A stretch of DNA of 64,000 bases from Planctomycetaceae bacterium (GTDB lineage Bacteria > Planctomycetota > Planctomycetia > Pirellulales > Pirellulaceae). Location: NCBI GenBank assembly GCA_002723275.1, contig PBNZ01000037.1:59446-123445 (forward strand), read 5' to 3'. The notes under the pieces were generated by a model. It was given only the letters and a program-made list of their open reading frames with translations, did not search any database and was not told the DNA's origin. Made by a program: the position numbers and the translations under genes. Shown piece after piece: positions 13,910 through 30,879 of the stretch; positions within the stretch are counted from its first letter, which is position 1, and every line of letters begins with the position of its first letter.

Positions 13910-16900
13910 TCATTCGCCTTTCGAGTGTAGCCAGACAGGTTTCCCTTGCCGGTATAGAATCGCTCGTTTCTCCAGCGATTTGGTTATCTCGTTGTCACCG
14001 CGACCTCGTGCGATGCTGGCAGCTGTTTCCGCAAGCCGAATCGCTTCGTCGAATTTGCCGCCTTGAGCGAGTGCCGCTGCCAAAGTACCCAGGTACGGAG
14101 GAACCGTGTAGCTAGTGCGGTCGCATAGATCTCGCGCAAGATGCAACGCCCTTGTAGGATTACGCACCGACGCATCGTTGTGAGTCGCGTACAACCAGGC
14201 AAGGTTGTTTGCAGCTTCGTTCGCCTCAGGGGTAGTCGCCAGAATCTGTTCATACTGTTGAATTGCTTCGAGGGGACTTCCTTGCAACTGCAATGCGATG
14301 CCAAGATTGAGTTGTATTTCAGGACTATCGCTCTTCTGCTCTAAGGCTTTGCGGAACCATTCAACCGCCGACGGGACTTGACCCGTTTTCATGTAAGTCT
14401 GTCCCAACAGGACCATTGTTCCGGCATCGTCCGATACACGACTTGAGATGTCTTGCAGAATCGAATCTGCCGCCGACGTTTGACCTTGCTGGAACAAGGC
14501 CACTGCTAGATTCGCCTTGGCTGTATTGCTATCTGGTTGCAAAGTGACCAATTGACGCAAGATGCGCAGTTGGTTTTTCGGTTGCCCTCGGTCTCTTTCA
14601 ATATTGGCCAGGAGCCGAAAACCCTTGATCGTGGTCTGTCGCTGCAGATCCTGTAAGGCCTGCTTCAACCTTGTTCGCTCAGTCGTCTGGTGGCTCGACG
14701 AATTGGTTTGCGTATGACGTGGCACTCGACTTTCGTGGATCGCTCCGGGACGTAGGGAACCCTCCATCACATCTGTCAGCCGATCAAAATCGCTGATCTC
14801 CGCAATGTTTTTCAGGAAGCGAATCAATTCACGGCGTGCGTCCTGAAGATAGCCAGCCTCGTAATAGGCCGTTGCCAAACTCAACGGGCTAGGATTGTAG
14901 TTGCGAATAATTTGTCTTCCTGGAAAGGGAAACGCCGCTCGGGCGAGTTCCTCGGGGGCGGCTTCGAGACGTTCAATGTCCATTGCCAATTGCTGAGGTT
15001 CGACGGGACCCTTGTAGATCGCTGCGACCTTCCCCTCTTGGTCGATCAATAAACTACAGGGCAGGGGGAGCGGCTGCGTCAGATAAAAGATGTCGTTGTT
15101 TAACGTGGTCAATGCTTGAATGACCTGTTCATTTGCCAGTCCAAACTCAAAGGGCCAATTGGATTCCTGGACCAGTGATCTGGCTGTCGATAAATCCGCG
15201 TCTTCCTGGAGAGGATCGGTACAAAGCGCGACGACCCGTAGCTTTGACGGTTCGAGCAAACTCCATTCTTTTGAAAGTTGGTCGAATTCCTCCAGACACG
15301 GACGGCACCAGCTTGCCCAAAGATTGATCAAGGTGCCAGAGCGAGACTCTGGTGTAACACTCGCGTTGGACAGCTGTCGAGTTTCGCCATTAAAGTCGCG
15401 GAATTCGAGGTCGGGCAGGGCGAGTCGGTGTGTCAGTAACGTGCGGGATCGATCGCTGGAAGCTGTTGCCCCAAGTTGTGAAGCTTGCAGCTGTACCAAA
15501 CGTTCGCTGTGGACGGCTTTGGCCAGTTGCGAGCCCTGGACGATGCTGTAGCGTTGGTTGGGGAGAATGTTTTCGAATGATTCCACATCTTGGCTCGGCC
15601 AATGAACGGTCAGACGATCAATCTTCCAGTCAGTTCCTAAGCCGAAGTGAACCCACTTGGATGACTGACTGAGAAATCCCTCACCGGCTCGGAGTGTTCG
15701 GATTAGTGTTTTGCGTTGTCCATCTGACGAAGATTCTGCACCTGAAATCGTCGTCTGAAGATGCAATTGAACGCGAGCACCAATTGCGTCGCGATTGCAA
15801 CGGGTCCCCTGCAATCGGACAGCCACAAACTGATTACTCTCAGGACTGCGATTTTGTAGCATCCGCACGCGTGGTCCTGTTCGGTTGGAGATCCAGAGAT
15901 CTAGATCTCCGTCATGGTCCCAGTCGACTATTGCCGTTCCTCGTCCATCGTCGATAAAGTCCAGGCCGGTTACATAGGAGGCATCTGCGAATTGCTGACC
16001 TCCCGTGTTCAGAAAGCAACGGTTGCGTTCGCGTCCGCTGAAACTGAAACCTTCGCTGATCATGCCACCCAGGTCGCTCCAGTTATCCAGGTAATCTTCA
16101 GCATTGGCAGGTGTTTGAGCATCCGTTGGTGATTGCGACACGACCTGTCGCCAAAAGAAGCTTCACAAGTCTTGGGTCGATTCTTGGGTGATGTAACCGT
16201 TGGCGACAATCAGATCTTGCCAGCCATCATTGTTGATGTCGGCGAATTGTGATGACCAGGCCCAGCCACCAACGGTGACGCCTGCCGAGACACTACCATC
16301 TGAAAACAAGGGTGCATCACCGGCTCCAAGATTGGTGAACAACGAGTTTCCGCGAGCATGTCGCTGGAATCCGCCGCGTGTCTCGGGTGTCACGCTGTCT
16401 TCAAGGAACTGACGTTGGAATGCGATACGGTTTCCAGCCGAGGACCACATGTTGCTGACATACAGGTCCATCCATCCGTCGTTGTTGCCGTCACCCCAGC
16501 TGACTGACATACCGGCCGACATGTCCTCAACCCCCAACTCCGCCGCCACATCCGTAAAGATTCCGTCATCGTTGCGGTAGAGGTTGTTGCGTCCGAAATC
16601 ATTCGCGACATATAAATCTTGATCCCCATCATTGTCAAAGTCTTCCCAGGCGCAGGCCAGACTGAATCGGCGGTTCGATTTGTCGAGGCCGACCTGTTGG
16701 GTGACATTCGAAAAACGCCAGTCGCGGTCGTTTCTCAACAGTACGTTCCGGCTACCATTGTTTGCATCGTGATAGGGAACCGGCCGTACCATTCCTTCGG
16801 CGGTCGCCCGTCGGGCATAACAGCAGGCGTAGATGTCGAGGTCACCATCGTTGTCGAAATCGGCGGCGGCGAGTGAAATCGGTGGACCATCGGGAATAAG

Positions 16901-18031
16901 TTTGAATTGCCGCGGCCGAAAAATCCCTTCGCCATTGTTTTCAGCCATGATCACACCCGCCATCGTTGCCGCCACGAGATCCTGATCACCGTCGTTGTCC
17001 AGATCGATGAATAACGCGCTGTGGGTCTCGGTCAGCCAGTCCACACCTGCCTCTGCGGATACATCGCGAGCTGTTCCATCGGGCTGTTGCAGGTACAGGC
17101 GATTCGGCAGTCCTCCCGAAATGCCGCCGGGCTGACAAAGATAGACATCGTCCAGTCCATCGCCGTTGACATCTCCCACAGCTAATCCGTGATAACTCGT
17201 GGCGATGATGCCGTAGTACAACTCAAGACGGTGTAGCCAGTGACCGAGTCCGTAGACCAATTGCTGATGAAACGACTCATTCCCACCCAGAACTGATTCA
17301 GTACAGTCGGCAAACACACGATCACTTGGCCCTGAAAAAGAAGTCTGTTCGTCCTTGGTGATAGAAATCGATTTCAGTCGGGGCGGCGTTTGCGGCGTCC
17401 CGATGGTCCAACGACATTCCCATTCGCTTGTCTGTTGGATCGCTTGTATGGCTGTGCGTCCGCCGAGCCGAACCACGACCGCGGTGGTCGCCTGATCGGC
17501 TTCCATGTCGACGCCGAAGATCTTGAGCTTGCACCGCACGTCGCTCGCATCGGTCAAGGGAGCCGTGAGTTGATGGAGGGCGCGAAGAAAGCCTTCCGCT
17601 CCGTTCTGGACGACGGCTGAATCGGTGGCGATTGCTTCAGGACGTTGTACGGTGAGACCATGATCCTCAAAGACGGTCGATAACCGTTCCGGCCGCAGCT
17701 GGTGGCTCTGAAAACTTGGTGTGATCAAGTTCGAGAGTTGTTCGCCTGAGACTTTTGCTGGATCCTTGACCCAGTTGGCGATCACGTTTAGTTGGGATTG
17801 AGCGGCGCTACTGAACGCTTCGCTATCCCACAGATTACGCTCAAATACCGAAGGCGGCTCCGAGATCGAAATCGTCGCCGGCCTCTGACTTGCGCCGGCG
17901 GTTTCTTGCGATTCGGCTTGTTGAGCTGGCTCGTCGACCGCTGGCTTCAACGGTTCGGCCTCGCAGCCGGCGATTAGAAGCACGGCTGCGATGGATAACT
18001 TGACGATTGAGCTTGTTGTAACCTTCATCAA
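13910..18031 (-). CDS. candidate selenoprotein: CRTAC1-like FG-GAP/ASPIC-UnbV lipoprotein with thioredoxin and TPR domains (copy A)
   Basis: Read as one 1373-residue exported protein with in-frame UGA (16163-16165) at residue 623. Order: signal peptide and lipobox 'LLIAGC' (Cys about 23), a helical N-domain (60-260), VCBS/FG-GAP calcium repeats ('DVNGDGLDDVY' about 285, 'DFDNDGDLDIY' about 389, 'DFDNDGDQDLYVAND' about 464), UGA in 'QDL-U-SFFWRQVVSQSP', a further repeat and the ASPIC/UnbV domain (about 660-820), a TlpA-like thioredoxin domain with 'WASWCRPC' near 905, and TPRs (about 1130-1360). If UGA stopped translation, the beta-propeller would be cut and the second half would need a GTG start without a good Shine-Dalgarno. 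Sixteen nt separate its start from the LamG gene, so they are probably cotranscribed. It is homologous along its whole length to 19352-23434. Confidence 0.85.
16133..16154 (-). promoter_or_regulatory. SECIS-like hairpin after in-frame UGA (copy A)
   Basis: On the minus strand, 17 nt after the UGA, a 6-bp stem GCGACA/UGUCGC closes the loop GGUCG, with a bulged G and two further U-A pairs below. A GGU-containing loop on a short helix with a bulge, 16-20 nt from the UGA, matches the E. coli fdhF SECIS layout (loop GGUC, single bulged U). It lies inside the coding region. Confidence 0.82.
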
Positions 18032-18047
18032 GCCACAAGCGACGGTT

Positions 18048-19277
18048 TTAAGCCCGTCGACGAAGCCATAACGGAGCCAGGCAAAGACCCAGGATAAGCG
18101 TCAGCAGCGAAGCAGGTTCTGGCACTGCAGCAACGGCCGCGACGGGACCTGCTTCATAACCGCCGTCTGTGAACGACGTGACAAGATCTGCTGAGGAAAA
18201 ATCAAGATCCCCATTCCAGTCGCCGTCACCCCAGTTCGAGTTGCCCGCTTCGGTATCCTCGTACTCACCTCGAGTAAAGACCTGTACCAGATCAGCACTA
18301 TCGAACGAACCGTCATTGTTCGAATCGCCAAACCACGTTTTGCGGAGATCTTTGACCCACGTTGTGCGGTCCAGTTGATTGACAGCGCCATCGTTATTCA
18401 CGTCGAAACTATTCGAACGATCGGCTTCGGCCTTATTGACCTCTGCCGTCAGTAGATCGATGTCGACCTCATCCAACGTACCGTTATTGTCAAAATCACC
18501 GGGGACACTTGGGCCACCGCCGCCGGCGCCGAAATCACTGAAGTCGCCACCCATGATCGTCATGATCTGTTCTTGAGTCAGGGCCTCATTGAAGATTGCC
18601 ACGTCATCCAGCATGCCATGCATATTCGTTGTTCCGTCCAAACGGCTACCAATGAACAAGGGCATGTCTTCGTCCACTAACGGCTGGAATTCGACGTCGA
18701 TGAAGCCATCACCGTTTTCTTCCCCGTTCAGATAGTGCAAGACCTCGCCGTCTTCGGTCATCGTGATCGCGATGTGTTGCCATTCTTCAACCGCGGCTGA
18801 GTCTAATGAATTGACTTGGGTAATCGCTCCGTTGCCTTCACCAGCAAAATAGCTGACTCGTCCATCACCACGATGCGTGTAAACATCATACGGAGAGGGT
18901 TTGTTTTGAGCTGCCGAACCTGTCTTGGAGACAACGGCGTTCCAGGTGTCGAACTGTTCGAACTGAGCCCAGGCTGCAATGGTGATGCCCGTTTCTTCGA
19001 TCGAAAGCGAATCTGAGTCTTCGACTTCAAGCCAACCAACGGGATTCTGGTCACCTTCGCCCGCGAAGTTCATGGCTCCGCCACGATCACCACCGCCGTC
19101 GACCCAGGAGACAGCATCGCCCTGTGCGAATGCGTCGTTTCCGTACTCACTGGAATCCGGTTGTGGATCGACGTCACTGTCGAATCGCCACAAACCAACG
19201 ATTTCCGCTTGAGTTGAGCCTGTTACGGCGAAGCATAAAACCGTCGAAACAATCAATACTTTTTTGAGCGACATCAT
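18048..19277 (-). CDS. LamG-like, EF-hand (dockerin-like), PEP-CTERM exported protein
   Basis: 409 residues. Signal peptide (cleavage near 'STQA'), a concanavalin-A/LamG jelly roll (about 30-230, 'GLWRFDSD', 'WQHIAITM', 'GMLDDVAIFNEAL'), two pairs of EF-hand-type calcium loops ('DFDNNGTLDEVD', 'DVNNDGAVNQLD', 'DSNNDGSFDSAD', 'DWNGDLDFSSAD') and a PEP-CTERM tail ('VPEPASL', hydrophobic helix, 'RRRA'). Expected to be exported and processed by an exosortase. ATG 19277 is chosen because GGAGG lies 8 nt upstream. Just upstream of and on the same strand as CRTAC1 copy A. Confidence 0.9.
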   Translation of the reverse strand: MMSLKKVLIVSTVLCFAVTGSTQAEIVGLWRFDSDVDPQPDSSEYGNDAFAQGDAVSWVDGGGDRGGAMNFAGEGDQNPVGWLEVEDSDSLSIEETGITIAAWAQFEQFDTWNAVVSKTGSAAQNKPSPYDVYTHRGDGRVSYFAGEGNGAITQVNSLDSAAVEEWQHIAITMTEDGEVLHYLNGEENGDGFIDVEFQPLVDEDMPLFIGSRLDGTTNMHGMLDDVAIFNEALTQEQIMTIMGGDFSDFGAGGGGPSVPGDFDNNGTLDEVDIDLLTAEVNKAEADRSNSFDVNNDGAVNQLDRTTWVKDLRKTWFGDSNNDGSFDSADLVQVFTRGEYEDTEAGNSNWGDGDWNGDLDFSSADLVTSFTDGGYEAGPVAAVAAVPEPASLLTLILGLCLAPLWLRRRA

Positions 19278-19351
19278 GTTGGCAGCCTCCATTGAAAAGT
19301 TGACGCAATCGCGTTACCCGGCGGTCGACCGCCGATGGTAAACTAGCAGAT

Positions 19352-22300
19352 ATGCAGAATCAACTTTTTTCTACCGAAACGTTTGTTTCGGCATCTGTTG
19401 CCGCCGCATTTTCGAGCAGGCTGATAGGCCTGATGGTGATCGGGCTCTGTCTTTGGGGCTGCAATTTTCGAAAAGAAGTGGCTCCAGTTTCGGAAACGGG
19501 ACGAAACCAGCAATCTGCCATCGGCGTACACGGAGATCTCAGCGACTCGACCGAACCAACAGCGGAAATCGCTCGCGGTAAGCTGGGTATGCCCAATGTT
19601 TTGGATGCTGATGTCGCTGGGAATTGGGATACCGAACGAGTCAGCCAATTGGTCAGCGACAGGTTACAAGAGGTGGCCGACCTGTTGAAGAGTTATCCGG
19701 CTCCCGAAGTGGAGCAGATGCGGAAGCTGCTGGATGCATCCTTTCAATGTTTCAATTTGCGACCTGATTCGCCGCCGCTGGTTTACGAGGATGATGTACT
19801 CGTCATTCGGCGTCAATTGGATGCCTCCACAAACGCATCCGAAGCATCGGCTCGTTTATTGAATTCGAAAGTCGACGAAAGCCAGATCCGTGACACATCC
19901 GGCGTAACGGATGTCGGAGTGACCTATTCCGGCGTAGAGGGTTTTCTGAAGGCGATGTTGCATCTATCGGAGCCGCTGCGAAGTGTCGCGAAACGGCAGT
20001 GTAAATTCAAGCTGTTTTCGATTGATCTATCTGAAGGCAATGTTCAGACGCTCGCCTACTTTTATCTTAGCGGCCAGGTCAACGCTCGTCATTTGCAACA
20101 GTCGGCCACATGGCGATGCGACTGGAAGCTGAATGGTGAGAGTGATCTCCGTCTCGTATCGATTAATCTGATGGATTACGAAGAGGTCGTCTGCCATCAG
20201 AACGGTTCGCCGTTCTGGTCGGACTGCACGACGGCGGCCATCGGAAAGTCGGATGCCTTCCAACAGCAACTTCGATATAGTCTCGACCATTGGTTGGATC
20301 GAACGGAACAGAATTATGGCATTGGATCGACGGGCTATCAGGGGCTCGCGATTGCCGATGTCAACGGTGATGGGTTGGATGATGTTTTCCTGGCTCAGTC
20401 AGGTGGCTTGTTGACAGGTTTGCCTAACCGTTTGTTCGTCCAGCAACCGGATGGTACGGCAGTCGATACTTCTATTGAGTCTGGCCTTGGATGGACCAAC
20501 GGAACTCACACTGCGTTATTTGTCGATTTGGACAACGATGGTGATCAGGATGTCATCGTGGCTACTTCGATGGGCATCATCTTGGCCGAAAACAATGGCT
20601 CCGGCCAATTCAAGATTCAGCAGTCAAAACTGACTCCGGAAGCGCCTCCCATGTCTCTGGCTGCCGCGGATTACGATGTCGATGGCGATCTGGATATCTA
20701 TGTTTGTTGTTATTCCCGACGATCGTCATCTCAGCTTTTAGGACGCCCCCTACCTTTTCACGATGCGAACAACGGTGGCCGCAATATCCTGTTTCGAAAT
20801 GATGGTGGTTGGCGCTTTTCCAATGTGACTCAGTCGGTTGGCTTTGAGCAAAATAATCGGCGTTTCAGTTTCGCTGCTGCTTGGGAGGACTTTGATAACG
20901 ACGGTGACCTGGATTTGTATGTCGCCAATGATTACGGCCGCAATAATCTGTTTCGCAATGACGATGGTCAGTTTACGGACGTCGCTGACGAGTTAGGGGT
21001 TGAGGATATTTCGGCGGGAATGTCGGTGACCTGGGGTGACTACAATCGTGACGGGATGATGGACCTGTATGTCAGCAACATGTGGTCATCTGCCGGAAAT
21101 CGCATTGCCTATCAACGTCAATTCCAGGAGAGTGCAGATGACGCGACTCTCCAACAATATCAGCGGCACGCTCGGGGAAATTCCCTGTTTGAAAACGTTG
21201 GTTCAATCGGTCCGTTCCGAGATGTGAGTGTACCGGCAGCGGTCACGATGGGACGTTGGGCCTGGTCATCTCACTTTGCCGACATCAATAACGACGGTTG
21301 GCAGGACTTGTTGGTGGCAAACGGCTTTGTGACACAGGAAGACACATCTGACTTGTGAAGTTTCTTTTGGCGACAGGTCGTGTCGCAATCACCCGTCGAT
21401 GCAACCGCTCCGACGGATGAATACCTGGATAGCTGGAATCAATTGTCGCAGATGATTCGTAATGGTCGCAGTTTCAGCGGGCGCGAACGCAATTGCTGTT
21501 TCCTCAATACGGGGCAGCAGCGATTCGCAGATGTTTCCGCTGCGACCGGCTTTGATTTTCCTGACGATGGTCGTGGTTTGGCACTGGTTGATTGGGATCA
21601 AGACGGTGATCTCGATGCCTGGATTGCGAATCGGTCGAGTCCTCAAGTGCGATTGTTAATGAACCGTATGCAGACGGATCATCGTTGGGTTGCCTTTCGG
21701 CTCGAGGGCACCCAATGCAATCGCGATGCAATTGGTGCTCGTGTCACCGTTATTACGCATGCCAAAGAGCAGCGGCCGCAGATCAAGACCTTACGAGCCG
21801 GTGAAGGGTTCCTCAGTCAATCCAGCAAGTGGCTTCATTTTGGCCTTGGAAACGACACGCTAAAACGCGTCATTGTCCATTGGCCGGGTGCGGAAAGCCC
21901 AGAAGTCTTTGAAGGATTGGAATCGGATCTTCGTTATAAAGTTGTTCAGGGTACAGGACACGCGCTGCCGCTTGAACCGCGGTCTGGTGTCGTGCTTCCG
22001 CCGTCTGAGCTGATGCCAACTCCGAGCCAGGAAACCGCTCGCATTGTCCTGTTGCAGAGGCATCGTTTGGAGGGTATTCAATTCACCGATTTCAAATTGC
22101 AGCAGAAGACACTTGTTCCTGGCAACAGAAGCCCGCGGCTGATAAACCTTTGGGCTTCCTGGTGTCAGCCATGTATCGCCGAACTTGCCGCTCTGCAAGA
22201 GCGAGCCAATGACCTGGCAAGCGTCCAGCTTTCGGTTACGGCCTTGTGCGTGGACCGGGTTCAAGATGAAAACGCGGATCCAGCACTCGCCCAAACGATC

Positions 22301-23434
22301 GTCGAGGCTTGGGATGCGATTGAATTCGGCTGGGCCGAAACCGATTTGCTGCGTGACCTGACGAATGTTCACAACGATGTGCTCTACCGCCAAAGATCTT
22401 TGCCGGTCCCCTGCAGCTTCTTGCTCGACGAACAAGGAGCGATTGCCGCGATTTACCGAGGTCCGCTGGAGGTCGATCAACTACTCAAAGATGTGCGGTT
22501 GTTGAATCGCTCGCCCCCAGAACTTGCGGAAACCGCTGTTCCCTTTTCCGGGATGAATGTCGCACGCAGATTTTCTCCCCATGGAGTCAATGTTGCTCGT
22601 GCTTACCTTGAAGGCGGCTACCTGGATGATGCACGCATTGAATTGGAAATGTATGTCCGACAGCACTCTAATGCGACAAATTCGAATGCGAGGACGGATA
22701 GCAATCGGAATCGTTTGCTGCAGGCGTACCTGTTGTTGGCCAGGATTGCCCAGCAACAAGATCGCACTCGCGATCAAGTTAATGCCCTGCGACAAGCCAT
22801 CCAACTAGAGCCAACCGAGTTTGATGCTCGAATTGAGTTGGCGTTCGCTGTCCTGGCTGGTGAAGGCGATCGCGATGCGGCGAATGCCCTGCTCAGTCAG
22901 GCTCGGCTCCTGGCCTCGGACAATGTCGATCGATTCGTGCGTTTAGGGCAGGCCTATGCAAGAATCGGTCAGGTTCAACAAGCGATTGAATTCTTCCAGC
23001 GTGCCACAACCTTGGAGCCACAGAAGCCTGAACCACGTTTCAACTTGGCGATAGCGCTTCAGCTTTCTGGCCAATCGGCATCGGCTGTAACCCAGTACAG
23101 TCAATTGTTGGAAACGCATCCGGGACTGATCGAAGCGGCCAACAACCTGGCATGGTTGTTGGCGACCGACGAAAATCCGGCGATACGAGATGCCTCGCGA
23201 GCGATCGAATTGGCAGCCAGTGTCTGTTCCACGACGCAAAATTCTAATCCTGCTTATCTGGATACATTGGCTGAGGCCTATGCGGCCGCTGGAAATTACA
23301 GCGAAGCTGTTCAAGTTGTCGCGCAAGCCATCGAAATCGCACTCAAAGATGAAAACGCGGAAATGGTGCAGAAGCTTCGGCAAAGGCGTCAGCGATTTCA
23401 GTCAGAAATAAATACAGCCACCGAACGCGAATAA
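19352..23434 (+). CDS. candidate selenoprotein: CRTAC1-like FG-GAP/ASPIC-UnbV lipoprotein with thioredoxin and TPR domains (copy B)
   Basis: Read as one 1360-residue protein with in-frame UGA (21356-21358) at residue 669. Signal segment with lipobox-like 'LCLWGC' near residue 37; VCBS/FG-GAP repeats from about 336 ('DVNGDGLDDVF', 'DFDNDGDLDLYVAND', 'NNDGWQDLLVANGF'); UGA in 'SDL-U-SFFWRQVVSQSP'; ASPIC/UnbV (about 700-870); TlpA-like domain with 'WASWCQPC' at about 936; TPRs from about 1080 to 1350. It shows no other lesion. From the UGA onward, 38 nt are identical to copy A except one silent third base, whereas the flanks have diverged. Divergently oriented from the LamG gene 75 nt away; followed by the giant LTD/CotH gene. 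Confidence 0.85.
21367..21388 (+). promoter_or_regulatory. SECIS-like hairpin after in-frame UGA (copy B)
   Basis: Same element as in copy A: stem GCGACA (21370-21375) with UGUCGC (21381-21386), loop GGUCG (21376-21380), bulged G at 21369 and U-A pairs 21367-21388 and 21368-21387. Distance from UGA to the loop is 17 nt. Confidence 0.82.
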
Positions 23435-23505
23435 GTTATTCAAGATCCTTTCCATTCCAGAATATTTACGTGCTTTACGCACTCGTTCTGGTTAAAAAAG
23501 AGATC

Positions 23506-26500
23506 ATGAATTCTAAAAAACGCCTTCTCCGACACGGTTTGGAATCGCTTGAAATTCGATTAGTGCTGGATAGCACTGTCGTGTTCAATGAACTTATGTA
23601 TCACCCCCTGCAAGGGCAGGAATCGCTGGAGTTTGTTGAACTTCACAATCAGATGGCCGTCGATATGGACATCTCGAAGTGGAGTCTTCAACAAGGTATC
23701 TCCTTTGAATTCCCCGAGGGAACGATTGTGCCCGGAGGAGGGTATCTGGTTCTCGCAAAGGATCCGGCTGCCTTGCAGCAAGAAGGTGCCGAGGTGGTGG
23801 GCCCCTACGAAGGCAGTTTGTCCAATCAGGGGGAACGTCTGGAGTTGCGTGACCGCAATGATCGTCGCATGGATGTGATCGATTACGACGATGGTGGTCA
23901 GTGGCCCATCGCGGCGGATGGTTCTGGAGCTTCGTTGGCGAAGATTGATGAGGATACTCTGAGCCGGCGTGCTGAAAACTGGTCGTCTAGTATTGTTGTG
24001 GGGGGGACTCCGGGCGCGGCTAATTTTCCGGAAGAGGTTGAGCCGGATCCGGATGTAATTCAGCAACTGCTTACTCAGGAGGACTCCTGGAAGTTTGACA
24101 CTTCGGGATCCGATCTTGGTACGAACTGGCGAAGTCCCGACTACGACGATAGTGGTTGGTCGGGTGGCGAGCCTGATCAACAGGGACCCTACTTTGCTGG
24201 CGACGCGCGTTTGGTAGGAGCGACCTCGGAAATGGTGACGGGCGTAAGTGCTGCAGCATCATCTGCCTTGGCCAGTCACGACCCGATCCACACGGTTGAT
24301 GGCTCAGGAATGGTTGGAGATGCCCACGTGTTCTCCAAATCCGCGGGTAATATGTGGGTAACGACCGGTACCTTCTTTGGTTTGCCACCGGATCTTGATC
24401 CAGAGATTACCTTTGATTTAGGGCAAACCCTGTCGGTCGATTCGATGCGTGTCTGGAACTACAACCATGTCGATGTCGGCGACTGCTGTTTGAATCAAGG
24501 GGTCGCTCTGGCGGATATCTGGGTTGCCGGTGAGGATGGCAACTTCTCATTGTTGATCGAGAACCAGGTTTTCGATAAAGCACCCGGCACCGAAACCGAC
24601 TTCTCTCAGGAGATTGACCTGAACGGAGCGAGTGCCCGATACATCAAGATCGACGTAGACACGTCTGATGGAGTTGCCAACTACGGGAACGCACTCAACT
24701 TTGTCGGACTCAGTGAAGTTCAGTTTTTTGCTGAGCCACCGGCCGGTAATACCGAGCTGTCGCTAGGACCGCCAACTCATTACTTCCGCAAGGAATTTGA
24801 CTTCACTGAAGCGTCGGACCGAACACGTTTGTTAGTCGATCTGATGCTGGATGATGGCGCTGTGGTCTATTTAAATGGCGAAGAGATTGCTCGTCAAAAT
24901 ATGCCAGCTGGCGACATCGGCTTTGAGACGACCTCGATGTTCGAATTGACAAATGCGACTTCGAGTGGAACCCTTGAAGTTCCCTCGGACAGTCTTGTCA
25001 ACGGACGTAATGTGTTGGCAGTCGAGGTGCATCAGCATCGTAGCGATGATCCCGATATGGTCTTCGCGATGGAGATGACGTCGATCACTTCGCCGCGTGT
25101 GCCGCTTCGCTTCGATTCTCTGCCGGTCGTCATCAATGAAGTGGGTGGAGCCGATTCGCCTGCGGACTTCTTTGTTGAGTTGACGACTACCGGATTGGGA
25201 TCGGTCGACGTATCGGGCATGAAGCTCGTGGTAGGGGATTTTGAACACTCGATTCCCGCCGGGGCGGAACTGACTGCGAATGATTACCTCGTGGTATCAC
25301 CTGGTGCTGCTTACTCGCCGCGAGCCGGGAATGATGTGCGGTTATTTAGTGCTGATCGCCAGCTTGTGCTATCCGCAGTGGAAATCGATTCCGTGGGGCG
25401 TGGGCAACATGCCGATAGCGATGGTCTATTGTTCACTTCGGAAGAGACGCCGGGTGCCGCCAACCTGTTTGAGCTGCGAGATGAGATCGTCATCAACGAG
25501 ATCATGTATAACTTTCGTGCAACAGCTGCTGATCCTGGTACGCCGCCAACGTTCGACACACAAGTTTTGATGCCGTTTGGCGCGATATGGCGCTACAATC
25601 AGTCCGGAGAGTCTTTGCCTGCGAATTGGGCTGAGTCATCCCACCCCGTTGGTGGGAATTGGTCGTCGGGACCGGGAATGCTCGGCGCTGAAACGGCACC
25701 GCTGCCAAGCCCTGGTTTGAACACTGAGTTTGATGATCCCCGAGCGAACGACATCCTGACCTATTATCTTGAGACCGACTTTGATATTAGCCAGGAACAA
25801 TTGGATAAGGTTGATCAGTTCCAGTTGCGACATGTGATCGATGACGGTGTGATCATCTACCTTAATGGGATCGAGGTTCTGCGACTCAACATGCCGGACG
25901 GACCGGTCGATCATCTGACTCGTGCGAGTGGAAGTGTCAATAACGCTGGCGTGAGTGAAGCGGTCGCGATACCGACGGACTTGTTGGTTGTTGGGAAAAA
26001 CCTGATTTCGGCGGAGGTTCATCAACGTTCCGCATCCAGCTCGGATGTCGTGTTTGGCTTGGAACTTTACACGGGGGCGATCACCGCTCCAGGGGAAGCG
26101 CCAACGTCGTATCAGGAAAGCGATGAAGAATGGATTGAACTGTATAACCGCGGGACCGAGATCGTTGATTTGTCGGGATGGCAACTCGATGACGCCGTCG
26201 AATTCGATTTCCCCGCAGGGACGAGCCTGGCGCCCGGTTCCTATCTGGTTGTGGCCCGAGATGCGGAAGATATGCAGCTCAAATATCCGGAAATCTCCGA
26301 ACAGATCGTTGGCAGTTTCCGCGGTAGTCTTAATAACCAGACGGACCGCATTGTGCTCTTGGATGCAAACGCCAATCCCGCGGATGTCGTGGAATATTAT
26401 GAGGACGGTCAGTGGCCGTTTGCCGCTGATGGTCGCGGTTCCAGCTTGGAACTGCGCGATCCAGATGCTGACAATAGTCGGGGGTTAGCCTGGGCGGCTA

Positions 26501-29500
26501 GCGATGAGAGCGGAAAGTCATCGTGGAAAACCTACACCTATCAGGGAGCTGCCAAACGCAGTTCGCTTGGGCCTGATAGGACTTGGGAAGAATTTGTCAT
26601 GGGCATGTTGGCCGATGGTGTTGTTTTGTTGGATGACATCAGCGTGATTCAAGAACCCAACGGTGAGGCAATTGAGATTATTCAGAACGGTAGTTTTGAA
26701 GGAGACACCGTTGGTGAGCACGCCGACAAGTGGCGGCTGATTGGGAATCATCGCCACAGTCAGGTCGTCGTCGACCCCGATGATCCCAACAATAAGGTTC
26801 TGCGTTTTGTCTCTACGGGTGCCACTGAGCACATGCACAACCATGCTGAAACGACGTTGAAGCACGGGGACGAATTTGTCGATATTCGAAACGGCTTCGA
26901 GTACAAGATCTCCTATAAAGCTAAGTGGGTTACCGGTGCAAACCTTCTGAATACTCGGCTTTACTTCAATCGATTGCCTCGTTCCACGCCAATTGCACAG
27001 CCCGAAAACCACGGGACGCCCGGACGTCAAAATTCGACGGCCGAAGAGAATATTGGTCCCACCTATGCCGAGTTTGGACACTCACCCGTTGTGCCGGATG
27101 AGAACGAGGCGGTTACGATTTCTGTCGTTGCTCAAGATCCTGATAACGTGACAGGTCTGGATCTCTGGTATTCCGTTGAAGCGGGTGATTGGGTCAGTAC
27201 CGAAATGAACTCGGTCGGCGGCGGGGAATATCGCGGGATGATTCCAGGTCAGGAGGCAGACGCTACTGTGCAGTTCTACGTTGAGGGAACTGATTCGAAT
27301 TCAGTCACATCGACGTATCCACGCAGGGGACGCGATTCCAGGGCGCTCTACAAGGTCGACGACGGTCTTGCGGCTGATGGGGGACTGCACAACTTTCGCA
27401 TGGTGCTTCACCCGGACGACGCCCGCACGTTGCATCAGACCATCGAATTGATGAGCAACGACATGGTGCCGGCCACCATGATTTATAACGAGAGTGAGGT
27501 GTTTTACGAGGCGAGCGTTCGGCTAAGCGGTAGTCAACGTGCCCGACCATTTCAGCCACGGTGTAGTTTCCGAATCGGTTTTAACGCCGATCATCTCTTT
27601 CGTGGTGTCCATAACGGCATCACGTTAGACCGCTCCGAAAGTACCGGTTTTGGACAACGCGAACACTTATATCATCATGGTATGAATCACGTCGGTGGCC
27701 TGCCAACCGAATATAACGATCTTTTCAATATCATCACGCCGCAGCAGCAACATACTGGGTCGGCTGAAGCTCAGTTGGCTCGTTATTCGGATGTCTTTCT
27801 TGACGAGCAATATGAGAACGGCAGCGATGGGCAGTTGTATGAGTATGAACTGACCTATTTTCCACAGCAAACCGTCGATAGAGACCCAGAAAGTCGTAAG
27901 GTGCCGAACCCGGACGGAGTCGCTGGGACTCCGATCCGATATCTCGGTGACGATCAGGAGGATTACCGATGGGCGTTTCTCAACAAGAACAATCGTGTCG
28001 AAAATGATTACAGCCAACTCATGGAGTTTACCCGCGTGTTTGGGCAGTCGGGTGATTCATTCAATAATCAGATAGCGGATGTGATCGATGTCGACCAATG
28101 GCTGCGCGGTTTCGCCTTTTCAGTCATGACAGGACATGGCGACAACTATGGTGCCGATGGCTCCCAGCATAACTTCCAGATATTTGAGAGACCGTCAGAC
28201 AATCGGTTCCTGTTCTTACCGCATGACTTGGATGCCTTCTTTGATTATCGCCGCGCACTCGTAGGGAATCAGGATCTGCGAAAACTGATTCGTGTACCTG
28301 ACCATGAGCATATGTATTACGGCCATGTTCATGACATGATTCAGACCACATTTAACGAGCAGTACATGCAGCGTTGGACCGATCATTGGAGAGAGCTGCT
28401 GCCGAGACAACGCTTTGATCGGCACTTGACTGATTTGGTTCGGCGATCCGATTATCTGATGACGCAAATTGAACGTCAGGCACCGGATGTTGAGTTTGCA
28501 ATAACCTCTCCCGCAACGACGGTAGATGAGTCCGTCGCCACGATCGAAGGAAACGGATGGGTCAATGTGCGTGAGATCCGGTTGGCCGGGAGTAGCGTTC
28601 CGTTGGAGGTAACGTGGGCCGATGTGACGGAGTGGCAGATCGACGTTCCGTTGGCTGAGGGGGCCAATCCGGTAACGGTCGAAGCATACGATTTCCAGGG
28701 AGCATTGATCGGCACTTCGAGCGTGACGATCACGAGTACTGTTGCGAATCCGATCGCCGACTCGTTGGCAATTACCGAAATCAATTATCATCCTGCTGAG
28801 CCCACGGCAGAAGAACGACAGCAAATTGCCAATCTGGATGATGATGATTTTGAATTCATCGAGCTTTCGAATATCGGCGCTGAGCCACTGAATCTATTGG
28901 GTGTTCAGTTTGACGCCGGCGTGAGTTTCACCTTCCCCTCACTGATTCTTGGTAGCGGCGAGTCGACTCTCGTCGTTCGTGATCTGAACGCGTTCCAGCT
29001 ACGTTACGGGGATGCGATGAGAATCGCGGGTGAGTTTGCCAGCGGTCGATTGGACAATGCGGGCGAGCGTATCTCACTTGTCGACGCCACCAATCAGACG
29101 ATTCTGGATGTCACTTACAACGATGCTGATCCTTGGCCTGTCCGAGCCGACGGCGTTGGTGCAACCCTGGAGCTGATTGACCCAGCTGGGACACCACGGG
29201 ATCAAATGGGTAAGCACTACCAGTGGCGGGGAAGTGTCGCCTTTGGCGGATCCCCCGGGATCGCGTCACAGGATGCGGTCGGGGTGGTCATCAATGAAGT
29301 GTTGACCAACACCGACCTGCCGTTGGTCGACTCGATCGAACTGGCCAACGTGACGGATTCCTCGATCGACATCAGCGGCTGGTGGTTGAGTGATTCGGCT
29401 GCAGACCTGGATGGCTATCGAATTCCCGATGGCACGATCTTGGATGCCGGGCAATACATCGTCTTTGATGAGGGGGACTTTAACCCAACACCGGAGACAC

Positions 29501-30879
29501 CAGGTCCAAATGACATCGCGCTCAATGGATCTGACGGTGACGATGTCTGGTTAATTGTGCCGAATGAAAATGGCCAACCCCAGGCATTTGCTGACGATGT
29601 GCGATTTATCGGTTCGCCAACGGGTGAATCCTGGGGACGAAGTCCGAACGGCAGTGGCAGATTGAATCCGATGACGGAGGTGACACTCGGCGTTGCGAAT
29701 TCAACGCCTCGCGTTGGCCCGATTGTGATCAGTGAGATCAATTATCATTCAGGTCCTGTCTCGGTTGCCGCGCTCGCGATCGAGCCGGCGTTAACCGTCG
29801 ATGACTTGGAATTTGTTGAGATCATCAATCCGACTGCCGAACCGGTCGATCTGACTGCTTGGCGTTTGCGTGGAGCTGTCGACTTTAATTTTGCCGATGG
29901 TACAACCTTGGCTTCAGGCCAAGTCGCAACCGTGATTGGTTTCGATCCAGCTGATGAGGATAACGCAACTCGTCTATCCGCTTTTCGGGCACACTATCAG
30001 CTTGAAGAAAACGTGGTCCTGCTCGGTGAGTTTGATGGCCGACTCAACGATGATTCAGAGAAACTCCAGTTGCGTCGACCTGAGATCGTCGGCCTGAATG
30101 GTGATGTTGTTGGCCATTACCTCTCCGATGAGGTTATTTATGATGACGTGTCGCCGTGGCCCGTTGCTGCGGACGGAGCGGGACAGGCCTTGGTGCGGTC
30201 GAGCTTGAGCGGATATGGAAATGCCGCACAAAGCTGGACGGCTGCTTCTCCCACACCGGGATTCATGTTGACGACGGATGCCGACTTTGATCAAGACGGT
30301 CAGGTCGACATTGCGGATGTTGACTTGCTTTGCGTCGGTATTAATGCGGGAGATGCTGCTTTTGATTTGACCGGAGATGGACAAGCCAATACCGATGATC
30401 TCGTCTTCATGATTCGTGATGTGCTCGGAACAACTCGTGGTGATGCCAATCTTGATGGCAAGTTCGATTCGGCTGATCTCGTCACTGTCTTCACGGTTGG
30501 CGAGTTTGAAGACGAAATCGCCGGGAATTCGACCTGGGCCGATGGCGACTGGAATTGTGATTTTGACTTTACGACGAGTGATCTCGTTGTCGCATTCCAA
30601 GACGGTGGGTACATTTCTGCCGCGCGACCAGCTGCTAACGGTAACATTGCTGCAGCTTTGCTGTTCGACTCTACGTCGACTCGCGATGCCGCATCCCCAA
30701 CGCCTGAGACCCTTGCACTCGCAATTGAAGATGATGGTCGATCGCGTCGGATGGATTTCGACGTGGAAGCACTGGATTCGATTTTTCAAGAATTCGACGA
30801 GCGTCGGGAAGAAGTTGATTCTTCGGATAAGGAGTTGGATTTGCGATCGATGCGCTTTTGGCAGCCACCGGAACTGTAA
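23506..30879 (+). CDS. giant exported protein with lamin-tail, CotH and dockerin-like domains
   Basis: 2457 residues from ATG 23506 (the frame is open from 23470). The N-terminus carries the planctomycete export tag 'LESLEIRLVLDS'. Lamin-tail-type beta domains recur (about 15-180, 540-660, 680-1030, 1750-1900, 1920-2060, 2070-2250; e.g. 'VFNELMYHPLQGQESLEFVE', 'ITEINYHPAEPTAEE', 'ISEINYHSG'). A discoidin-like segment lies near 240-420, and a CotH-type domain at about 1290-1660 ('FLFLPHDLDAFFDYR'). The C-terminus has four calcium loops ('DFDQDGQVDIADVD', 'DANLDGKFDSADLV', 'DWNCDFDFTTSDLV') and an acidic tail containing 'LDSIF'. Likely a cell-surface or matrix protein; enzymatic role unproven. 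Confidence 0.85.
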   Translation: MNSKKRLLRHGLESLEIRLVLDSTVVFNELMYHPLQGQESLEFVELHNQMAVDMDISKWSLQQGISFEFPEGTIVPGGGYLVLAKDPAALQQEGAEVVGPYEGSLSNQGERLELRDRNDRRMDVIDYDDGGQWPIAADGSGASLAKIDEDTLSRRAENWSSSIVVGGTPGAANFPEEVEPDPDVIQQLLTQEDSWKFDTSGSDLGTNWRSPDYDDSGWSGGEPDQQGPYFAGDARLVGATSEMVTGVSAAASSALASHDPIHTVDGSGMVGDAHVFSKSAGNMWVTTGTFFGLPPDLDPEITFDLGQTLSVDSMRVWNYNHVDVGDCCLNQGVALADIWVAGEDGNFSLLIENQVFDKAPGTETDFSQEIDLNGASARYIKIDVDTSDGVANYGNALNFVGLSEVQFFAEPPAGNTELSLGPPTHYFRKEFDFTEASDRTRLLVDLMLDDGAVVYLNGEEIARQNMPAGDIGFETTSMFELTNATSSGTLEVPSDSLVNGRNVLAVEVHQHRSDDPDMVFAMEMTSITSPRVPLRFDSLPVVINEVGGADSPADFFVELTTTGLGSVDVSGMKLVVGDFEHSIPAGAELTANDYLVVSPGAAYSPRAGNDVRLFSADRQLVLSAVEIDSVGRGQHADSDGLLFTSEETPGAANLFELRDEIVINEIMYNFRATAADPGTPPTFDTQVLMPFGAIWRYNQSGESLPANWAESSHPVGGNWSSGPGMLGAETAPLPSPGLNTEFDDPRANDILTYYLETDFDISQEQLDKVDQFQLRHVIDDGVIIYLNGIEVLRLNMPDGPVDHLTRASGSVNNAGVSEAVAIPTDLLVVGKNLISAEVHQRSASSSDVVFGLELYTGAITAPGEAPTSYQESDEEWIELYNRGTEIVDLSGWQLDDAVEFDFPAGTSLAPGSYLVVARDAEDMQLKYPEISEQIVGSFRGSLNNQTDRIVLLDANANPADVVEYYEDGQWPFAADGRGSSLELRDPDADNSRGLAWAASDESGKSSWKTYTYQGAAKRSSLGPDRTWEEFVMGMLADGVVLLDDISVIQEPNGEAIEIIQNGSFEGDTVGEHADKWRLIGNHRHSQVVVDPDDPNNKVLRFVSTGATEHMHNHAETTLKHGDEFVDIRNGFEYKISYKAKWVTGANLLNTRLYFNRLPRSTPIAQPENHGTPGRQNSTAEENIGPTYAEFGHSPVVPDENEAVTISVVAQDPDNVTGLDLWYSVEAGDWVSTEMNSVGGGEYRGMIPGQEADATVQFYVEGTDSNSVTSTYPRRGRDSRALYKVDDGLAADGGLHNFRMVLHPDDARTLHQTIELMSNDMVPATMIYNESEVFYEASVRLSGSQRARPFQPRCSFRIGFNADHLFRGVHNGITLDRSESTGFGQREHLYHHGMNHVGGLPTEYNDLFNIITPQQQHTGSAEAQLARYSDVFLDEQYENGSDGQLYEYELTYFPQQTVDRDPESRKVPNPDGVAGTPIRYLGDDQEDYRWAFLNKNNRVENDYSQLMEFTRVFGQSGDSFNNQIADVIDVDQWLRGFAFSVMTGHGDNYGADGSQHNFQIFERPSDNRFLFLPHDLDAFFDYRRALVGNQDLRKLIRVPDHEHMYYGHVHDMIQTTFNEQYMQRWTDHWRELLPRQRFDRHLTDLVRRSDYLMTQIERQAPDVEFAITSPATTVDESVATIEGNGWVNVREIRLAGSSVPLEVTWADVTEWQIDVPLAEGANPVTVEAYDFQGALIGTSSVTITSTVANPIADSLAITEINYHPAEPTAEERQQIANLDDDDFEFIELSNIGAEPLNLLGVQFDAGVSFTFPSLILGSGESTLVVRDLNAFQLRYGDAMRIAGEFASGRLDNAGERISLVDATNQTILDVTYNDADPWPVRADGVGATLELIDPAGTPRDQMGKHYQWRGSVAFGGSPGIASQDAVGVVINEVLTNTDLPLVDSIELANVTDSSIDISGWWLSDSAADLDGYRIPDGTILDAGQYIVFDEGDFNPTPETPGPNDIALNGSDGDDVWLIVPNENGQPQAFADDVRFIGSPTGESWGRSPNGSGRLNPMTEVTLGVANSTPRVGPIVISEINYHSGPVSVAALAIEPALTVDDLEFVEIINPTAEPVDLTAWRLRGAVDFNFADGTTLASGQVATVIGFDPADEDNATRLSAFRAHYQLEENVVLLGEFDGRLNDDSEKLQLRRPEIVGLNGDVVGHYLSDEVIYDDVSPWPVAADGAGQALVRSSLSGYGNAAQSWTAASPTPGFMLTTDADFDQDGQVDIADVDLLCVGINAGDAAFDLTGDGQANTDDLVFMIRDVLGTTRGDANLDGKFDSADLVTVFTVGEFEDEIAGNSTWADGDWNCDFDFTTSDLVVAFQDGGYISAARPAANGNIAAALLFDSTSTRDAASPTPETLALAIEDDGRSRRMDFDVEALDSIFQEFDERREEVDSSDKELDLRSMRFWQPPEL

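Follow-up and report, generated by a model that had tools for sequence, protein, structure and literature searches.

In-frame UGA codons of two CRTAC1-like lipoprotein genes in a Planctomycetaceae bacterium are most likely read as selenocysteine

The proteins of the CRTAC1/ASPIC-UnbV type carry FG-GAP repeats (PF13517) together with an ASPIC/UnbV domain (PF07593), and murine CRTAC1 (PDB 9etn) is a representative with a known structure. The same domain pair was found in two genes, named here gene 1 and gene 2, in a 64,000-nucleotide stretch of contig PBNZ01000037.1 (assembly GCA_002723275.1) of a Planctomycetaceae bacterium; this whole stretch is referred to as the window. Each gene is interrupted by one in-frame UGA, which is predicted to encode selenocysteine (Sec). 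Unlike CRTAC1, the window genes have in addition a lipoprotein-like start and TlpA-like and tetratricopeptide repeat (TPR) regions. Planctomycetes with Sec machinery and selenoproteins are known from the Porphyra isolates P1 and P2 (PMC4807772), and the present genome resembles them in this respect. The portions of the main text of that 2016 paper at hand name FdhA, FmdB and others, and no UnbV, CRTAC1 or FG-GAP protein (its Table S9 lies outside these portions). Similarly, the portion at hand of Table 1 in a 2026 review, with 119 selenoprotein families or subfamilies, lists no FG-GAP, ASPIC or CRTAC1 family (PMC13188914). The literature searched, with subscription papers and preprints outside its coverage, contained no Sec form of CRTAC1-type proteins and no paper joining selenoprotein with ASPIC and UnbV, or selenocysteine with FG-GAP; the matches to selenocysteine with CRTAC1 and to selenoprotein with VCBS were judged irrelevant from the listing alone. 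An earlier sequence-only reading of this DNA, which had proposed both genes to be selenoproteins and knew of no described selenoprotein of this kind, agrees with the portion of Table 1 and the literature covered here.

The in-frame UGA and its recurrence in related genes

The reading frames of gene 1 and gene 2 were open throughout but for the single in-frame UGA in each (Table 1). This codon lies upstream of the ASPIC domain, and the frame was conserved on both of its sides. From the UGA onwards, 37 of 38 nucleotides were identical between the two genes, whereas the identity was 70% over the preceding 120 nt and 9 of 22 nt after the 38-nt block. The sequence-only reading was thus right that each gene has one UGA at the same codon and no other lesion, and that a nearly identical block starts at the UGA between diverged flanks. 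It had spoken of two genes; both are real, and the number was too low.

The Pfam order in both genes was FG-GAP repeats, ASPIC/UnbV, AhpC-TSA/TlpA-like and TPRs. The FG-GAP model scored 129.9 and 149 bits in the two genes (cut-off 26.9) and UnbV_ASPIC 66.8 and 53.2 bits (cut-off 23.4), passing in each case. The AhpC-TSA model (PF00578) passed in gene 1 (37.6 bits; cut-off 26) and remained slightly below its cut-off in gene 2 (25.6 bits). Because phmmer nevertheless matched the same region of gene 2 to TlpA 1jfu (E = 1.5e-9), and Foldseek likewise to TlpA (E = 2.7e-9), this domain is named TlpA-like only. No NCBIfam model exceeded its cut-off in four family proteins scanned. Both proteins start with a lipoprotein-like signal (LLIAGC and CLWGC, read by eye).

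When the same genome was searched with gene 2, 89 matches were obtained, and 15 genes contained exactly one TGA around this codon; two weak TPR-only matches holding a stop (one TGA, one TAG) are excluded from this count. Thirteen of the 15 are close relatives (A-type) and two are more distant (B-type). Among the A-type genes, the ungapped pairwise identity was 0.80 across the 38-nt block that begins with the UGA. It fell to 0.54 over the 40 nt upstream and to 0.31 over the 38 nt downstream of the block, the last value being depressed by indels. Codon +8 was identical in all 66 pairs that share its residue and codon +9 in all 78 such pairs, and the same-codon rate at nearby codons was mostly 0.14–0.6; codon −15 (21 pairs) also reached 1.0.

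The single TGA recurred in other genomes. In 60 related genomes, this one included, a family profile (E 1e-20, up to 54 candidates scored per genome) recovered 113 homologous stretches, of which 101 had exactly one TGA, 12 were stop-free and none had TAA or TAG. In 195 genomes of the phylum (E 1e-28, up to 16 candidates scored per genome), 122 stretches comprised 100 with one TGA, one with three, 21 with none and again no TAA or TAG; the 15 genes described above are counted in both sets. The single UGA in 15 genes of one genome, in 101 of 113 stretches of relatives and in 100 of 122 of the phylum excludes chance.

The sites fall into groups by signature. Type A reads DL-U-S..WRQVVS and type B DL-U-S..WRTVVR, the latter with a GCGCAC/GUGCGC stem whose register is shifted by one base. 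Type C reads KPDG-U-xC.W, with a U-x-C motif and a different hairpin, and a further group reads DT-U-S.YWRHVVA. Type C occurs at loci L166–L173, L250–L263 and L320–L322, and also in genomes G003 and G067, where SelA and SelB are unconvincing. In one DT-U protein (L302, genome G075), three in-frame UGAs (1732, 1795 and 1807) lie within 26 codons; 14 nt after the third comes GCGCCAGGUCCUGGCGC, a second SECIS-like hairpin, and the product may be a multi-Sec protein.

The predicted SECIS hairpin and the selenocysteine machinery

The stretch following the UGA of gene 2 is predicted to fold as GCGACA-GGUCG-UGUCGC with a minimum free energy (MFE) of −9.3 kcal/mol; the distance from the UGA is 11 nt to the start of the stem and 17 nt to that of the loop. 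The sequence-only reading had given this fold at 17 nt, which holds for the loop start, and had added a bulged G; the MFE fold has no bulge, and the base in question is the last one of the 5-nt loop. For the bacterial selenocysteine insertion sequence (bSECIS), the published criteria are a loop of 3–9 nt, a stem of 4–16 bp, a G in the first two loop positions, a UGA-to-loop distance of 16–37 nt and an MFE of at most −7.5 kcal/mol (PMC13188914, legend of Fig. 2, in the portion at hand). With its GGUCG loop, 6 bp, 17 nt and −9.3 kcal/mol, the gene 2 hairpin falls within all of these limits, in line with the bacterial SECIS layout that had been proposed for it. The published bSECIS model was passed by 75 of 101 family sites (A 52/75, B 4/4, C 19/22); elsewhere in these regions, 634 of 14,961 in-frame positions also passed it.

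Pairing was examined in 75 A-type elements (74 distinct), which had been gathered by protein homology and not by DNA pattern. The six-pair stem was intact in 98.6% of cells, compared with 96.5% in shuffled alignments (reached by 0 of 500 shuffles, which ignore relatedness). Eight cells were double-changed, that is compensatory, against 1.4 (sd 1.0) after shuffling, and the covariation score was 0.159 against 0.108; in both cases 0 of 500 shuffles were as high. The number of further pair types was less telling (7 against 5.1; 13 of 500 as high). When the hairpin was slid along the alignment as a control, at most 69% of cells were paired and at most 5 were double-changed. Some of the double changes keep the pair and alter the protein (Ser +9 to Ala or Pro, Val +8 to Ala). 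An element model trained on the 15 elements of this genome, those of gene 1 and gene 2 included, scored the lowest of the 15 at 31.0 bits, and no other site exceeded 22.4 bits among the 150 candidates scored of 4417. The match at 22.4 bits (L198, contig 13:1262-1303 of the same genome; E = 0.2) lies outside the 15 genes and may be a chance match or another Sec gene.

The genome encodes the Sec machinery. The selA (495 bits) and selB (386 bits) genes are adjacent on contig 29, and the same contig has a tRNA-Sec (71 bits; SeC with anticodon tca by ARAGORN). The selD gene (L040, contig 44; 356 bits) itself contains one in-frame UGA near its start, and a Sec form of SelD is known. The absence of selB or selC had been named beforehand as an outcome that would speak against selenocysteine; both were looked for and found in this genome, and the check for all four genes proposed in the sequence-only reading was positive throughout. 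Furthermore, among the 60 relatives selB occurred in 19 of the 21 genomes with a UGA form and in 13 of the 39 without one (p = 2.6e-5). In the phylum sample the corresponding figures were 46 of 47 and 80 of 148 (p = 1.4e-9), relatedness being ignored in both comparisons. One exception with the UGA form, genome G034 (72% complete), has SelA and an adjacent C-terminal piece of SelB.

These results together, namely the machinery, homologous coding on both sides of the UGA, a covarying hairpin at the expected place and co-occurrence with selB, support the selenoprotein interpretation and make Sec by far the best reading. We therefore consider it nearly certain that the in-frame UGA of both genes is read as selenocysteine, SelB presumably placing it at the predicted SECIS hairpin. 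The combined explanation, in which Sec is inserted and the full-length products are redox lipoproteins, is very probable, its weight lying on the Sec part.

Role of the predicted selenocysteine and alternative readings

Several observations weigh against selenocysteine or its redox role. The first concerns the residues found in its place. The 138 UGA-less sequences (120 from the database and 18 from the phylum sample) carry D in 55, E in 26, S in 19, N in 8, A in 6, Q in 6, C in 5, G in 5, H in 4, R in 3 and Y in 1. Asp, Glu and Ser are thus far commoner than Cys, which is unusual for selenoproteins; in the phylum sample, 19 of the 21 stop-free stretches were read and gave E 8, Q 3, A 3, D 2, R 2 and N 1, with no Cys. 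The prediction that homologues would show Cys or UGA and nothing else therefore failed. Of the two other outcomes named earlier as speaking against selenocysteine, unrelated residues at the site were partly found, and a true gene boundary was not found in this genome. As for the hairpin, 26 of the 101 sites failed the bSECIS model, and in the 75 A-type elements the stem pairs showing a double change were not significantly more numerous than after shuffling (2 against 1.0; 75 of 500 shuffles as high). The first 15 elements, from this genome, had no double change, and the two B-type elements among them pair with a shift of one base; the larger set of A-type elements was analysed next. Single-sequence folds were weak (z from −1.93 to 0.04 in six folded; gene 2, −0.99 against shuffles), and an Rfam scan of the region gave no SECIS match and one irrelevant sub-threshold match. 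Two UGA-form genomes, G003 (99% complete) and G067, had weak partial SelA matches (42.6 and 44.3 bits) and SelB matches below the cut-off (158.0 and 175.8 bits). These resemble secondary matches in the genome studied here, and the sites read in G003 and G067 are of type C. Finally, the type C protein scanned (L168) had no thioredoxin domain.

The local structure was predicted for a piece folded by AlphaFold2 with Sec as Cys (mean predicted local distance difference test, pLDDT, 93.5; predicted template modelling score, pTM, 0.92). In this model the Sec position is residue 360, the first of a predicted helix spanning residues 360–370 in the CRTAC1-like propeller. Asp, Ser, Asn and Glu are common at helix starts. 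Murine CRTAC1 9etn was the best PDB match by sequence (E = 1.3e-14) and also by fold (Foldseek E = 3.8e-26, 16% identity), followed in the latter case by TlpA.

The proteins may form a redox relay outside the cytoplasm. The full-length lipoproteins would be extracytoplasmic redox proteins, in which the Sec selenol would act as the attacking residue and become oxidised by a substrate outside the cytoplasm, perhaps a peroxide or a disulfide. The CXXC of the chain's own TlpA-like domain would then return the Sec to its reduced state. We lean towards such a relay with an in-chain reductant with modest confidence. Of 43 near-full-length Sec proteins, 42 had the CXXC and the remaining one an ambiguous base there, and of 120 UGA-less homologues 21 had it (D 1/53, E 1/19, S 6/19, C 3/5); the 43 are those of 97 Sec sequences that were long enough on both sides. 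Partner cysteines were read by alignment, a regular expression having left 96 of the 120 UGA-less homologues unread. In independent tree pairs, Sec and CXXC changed together in 6.8 of 10 and in opposite directions in 0.0 (median p = 0.016). A second Cys, in the “ERNC” column, was found in 33 of 43 Sec proteins and changed with Sec in 5.9 of 10 pairs against 0.4 opposite (median p = 0.031, range 0.016–0.45). The AhpC-TSA/Redoxin domains were also found in one B-type protein (L054) and in the DT-U protein L302. Since L168 has no thioredoxin domain, the relay cannot be general.

It is possible, though rather unlikely, that Sec is inserted for a role other than TlpA-linked selenol redox, for instance metal binding in the propeller where other proteins use Asp or Glu. 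The acidic residues that dominate this position in UGA-less relatives and the type C protein lacking a thioredoxin domain would fit such a role, but Ser, Ala, Gln and Asn at the same site are poor metal ligands, type C carries U-x-C, and both the CXXC and the ERNC Cys follow Sec on the tree. A hairpin after a leaky stop codon is a known read-through context, and the rarity of Cys in UGA-less homologues and the UGA form in G003 and G067, without convincing SelA and SelB, could accordingly be taken to mean that the UGA is read by a near-cognate tRNA such as tRNA-Trp, helped by the hairpin and without selenium. This is very improbable, as the UGA form co-occurs with selB, the loop and spacing match a bacterial SECIS, and Trp is absent from this column in all 138 UGA-less homologues. 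That the UGA is a true stop, giving a truncated propeller lipoprotein and a separate gene from a GTG 21 nt past the UGA, is scarcely credible even though gene callers end 119 of the best 120 upstream-half relatives at DL and GTG-started open reading frames exist downstream in both genes, because stop-free relatives read straight across the site, the model folds both sides as one confident unit, no TAA or TAG occurs in the stretches of the 60 or the 195 genomes, the hairpin that follows the UGA shows covariation, and the UGA form tracks selB, which would not be expected of a genuine stop. Pseudogenes, sequencing errors and a wholesale or simple reassignment of UGA were rejected, as 186 different stretches share the single UGA and gene 1 itself ends in UGA.

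The wider family, the window and comparison with known selenoproteins

In a tree of 353 stretches, from which the site columns were excluded, Sec and non-Sec states required 17 changes, at least 8 of them forced by supported branches, indicating that gains or losses of Sec were repeated. A DNA pattern scan of GTDB contigs gave at least 111 loci, a lower bound of the prevalence; 111 of 113 pattern matches lay in family genes (two judged by eye), the other two being L078 and L122. Among the 80 loci listed, assigned by eye, 47 were from Verrucomicrobiota, 25 from Planctomycetota, 5 from Acidobacteriota and 1 from Actinomycetes (L078, a chance match). In the database, of the best 120 of 4297 relatives of the upstream half, gene 1 among them, 119 ended at DL just before the UGA and one at DM; longer full-length proteins could not be candidates in this comparison. 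It appears somewhat better supported than not that these genes form a selenoprotein superfamily of planctomycetes, verrucomicrobia and some acidobacteria that has reached 24 copies in one genome, that its Sec arose at a mostly acidic or Ser helix-start position of the propeller and not from an old Cys, and that, with its own TlpA-like reductase in the chain, it constitutes a surface selenium redox system.

If this is true, the family is strongly amplified, with 15 genes here and 24 UGA copies in the same-genus genome G001; in a 2016 survey, 39 selenoprotein genes were the largest bacterial set then known (PMC5029168, in the portion at hand). Since its UGA-less relatives rarely have Cys, search methods that rely on Sec/Cys pairs would be liable to miss it, and since annotation cuts the genes at the UGA, a surface selenium redox system would have been overlooked. 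The correction would touch many genomes, because its nearest relatives in the database are entered as proteins that stop at the UGA. The family also makes it testable how Sec arises at a position that is not Cys in relatives.

The features of the window are collected in Table 1. Gene 1 and gene 2 are divergently oriented paralogues, and between them sits a third gene (18048-19292, minus strand) for a 414-aa protein with a PEP-CTERM-like tail, recognised by eye. Gene 2 is followed by a gene for a 2469-aa protein (23470-30879, plus strand).

Table 1. Positions of the two genes and their predicted elements in the window
Feature	Coordinates	Strand	Remarks
Gene 1, lipoprotein-like	13910..18031	-	FG-GAP propeller, ASPIC/UnbV, TlpA-like and TPR regions; one UGA read through (predicted); final stop UGA
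Gene 2, paralogue of gene 1	19352..23434	+	Domain order as in gene 1; one UGA read through (predicted); final stop UAA
In-frame UGA of gene 1 (predicted Sec)	16163..16165	-	Codon 623 of 1374
In-frame UGA of gene 2 (predicted Sec)	21356..21358	+	Codon 669 of 1361
Predicted SECIS hairpin of gene 1	16135..16151	-	Element-model match 16165-16130; pairing across the family
Predicted SECIS hairpin of gene 2	21370..21386	+	Fold; element-model match 21356-21391; pairing across the family
Gene 2, ASPIC/UnbV domain (PF07593), 3' of the UGA	21728..21928	+	Pfam, residues 793-859
TlpA/AhpC-TSA-like thioredoxin-fold domain of gene 2	22127..22450	+	Pfam 25.6 bits, phmmer, Foldseek; CXXC at 22163-22174

In the portion of Table 1 of the 2026 review at hand (PMC13188914), the Prx-like, the “UGC-containing TlpA” and other selenoproteins resemble the window genes in having a UGA with a downstream hairpin in the coding region and a redox partner Cys. 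They differ in the place of the Sec: in the thioredoxin-fold selenoproteins of that table it lies inside the thioredoxin-fold motif, whereas in the window genes it is predicted in the propeller and the TlpA-like domain keeps its CXXC.

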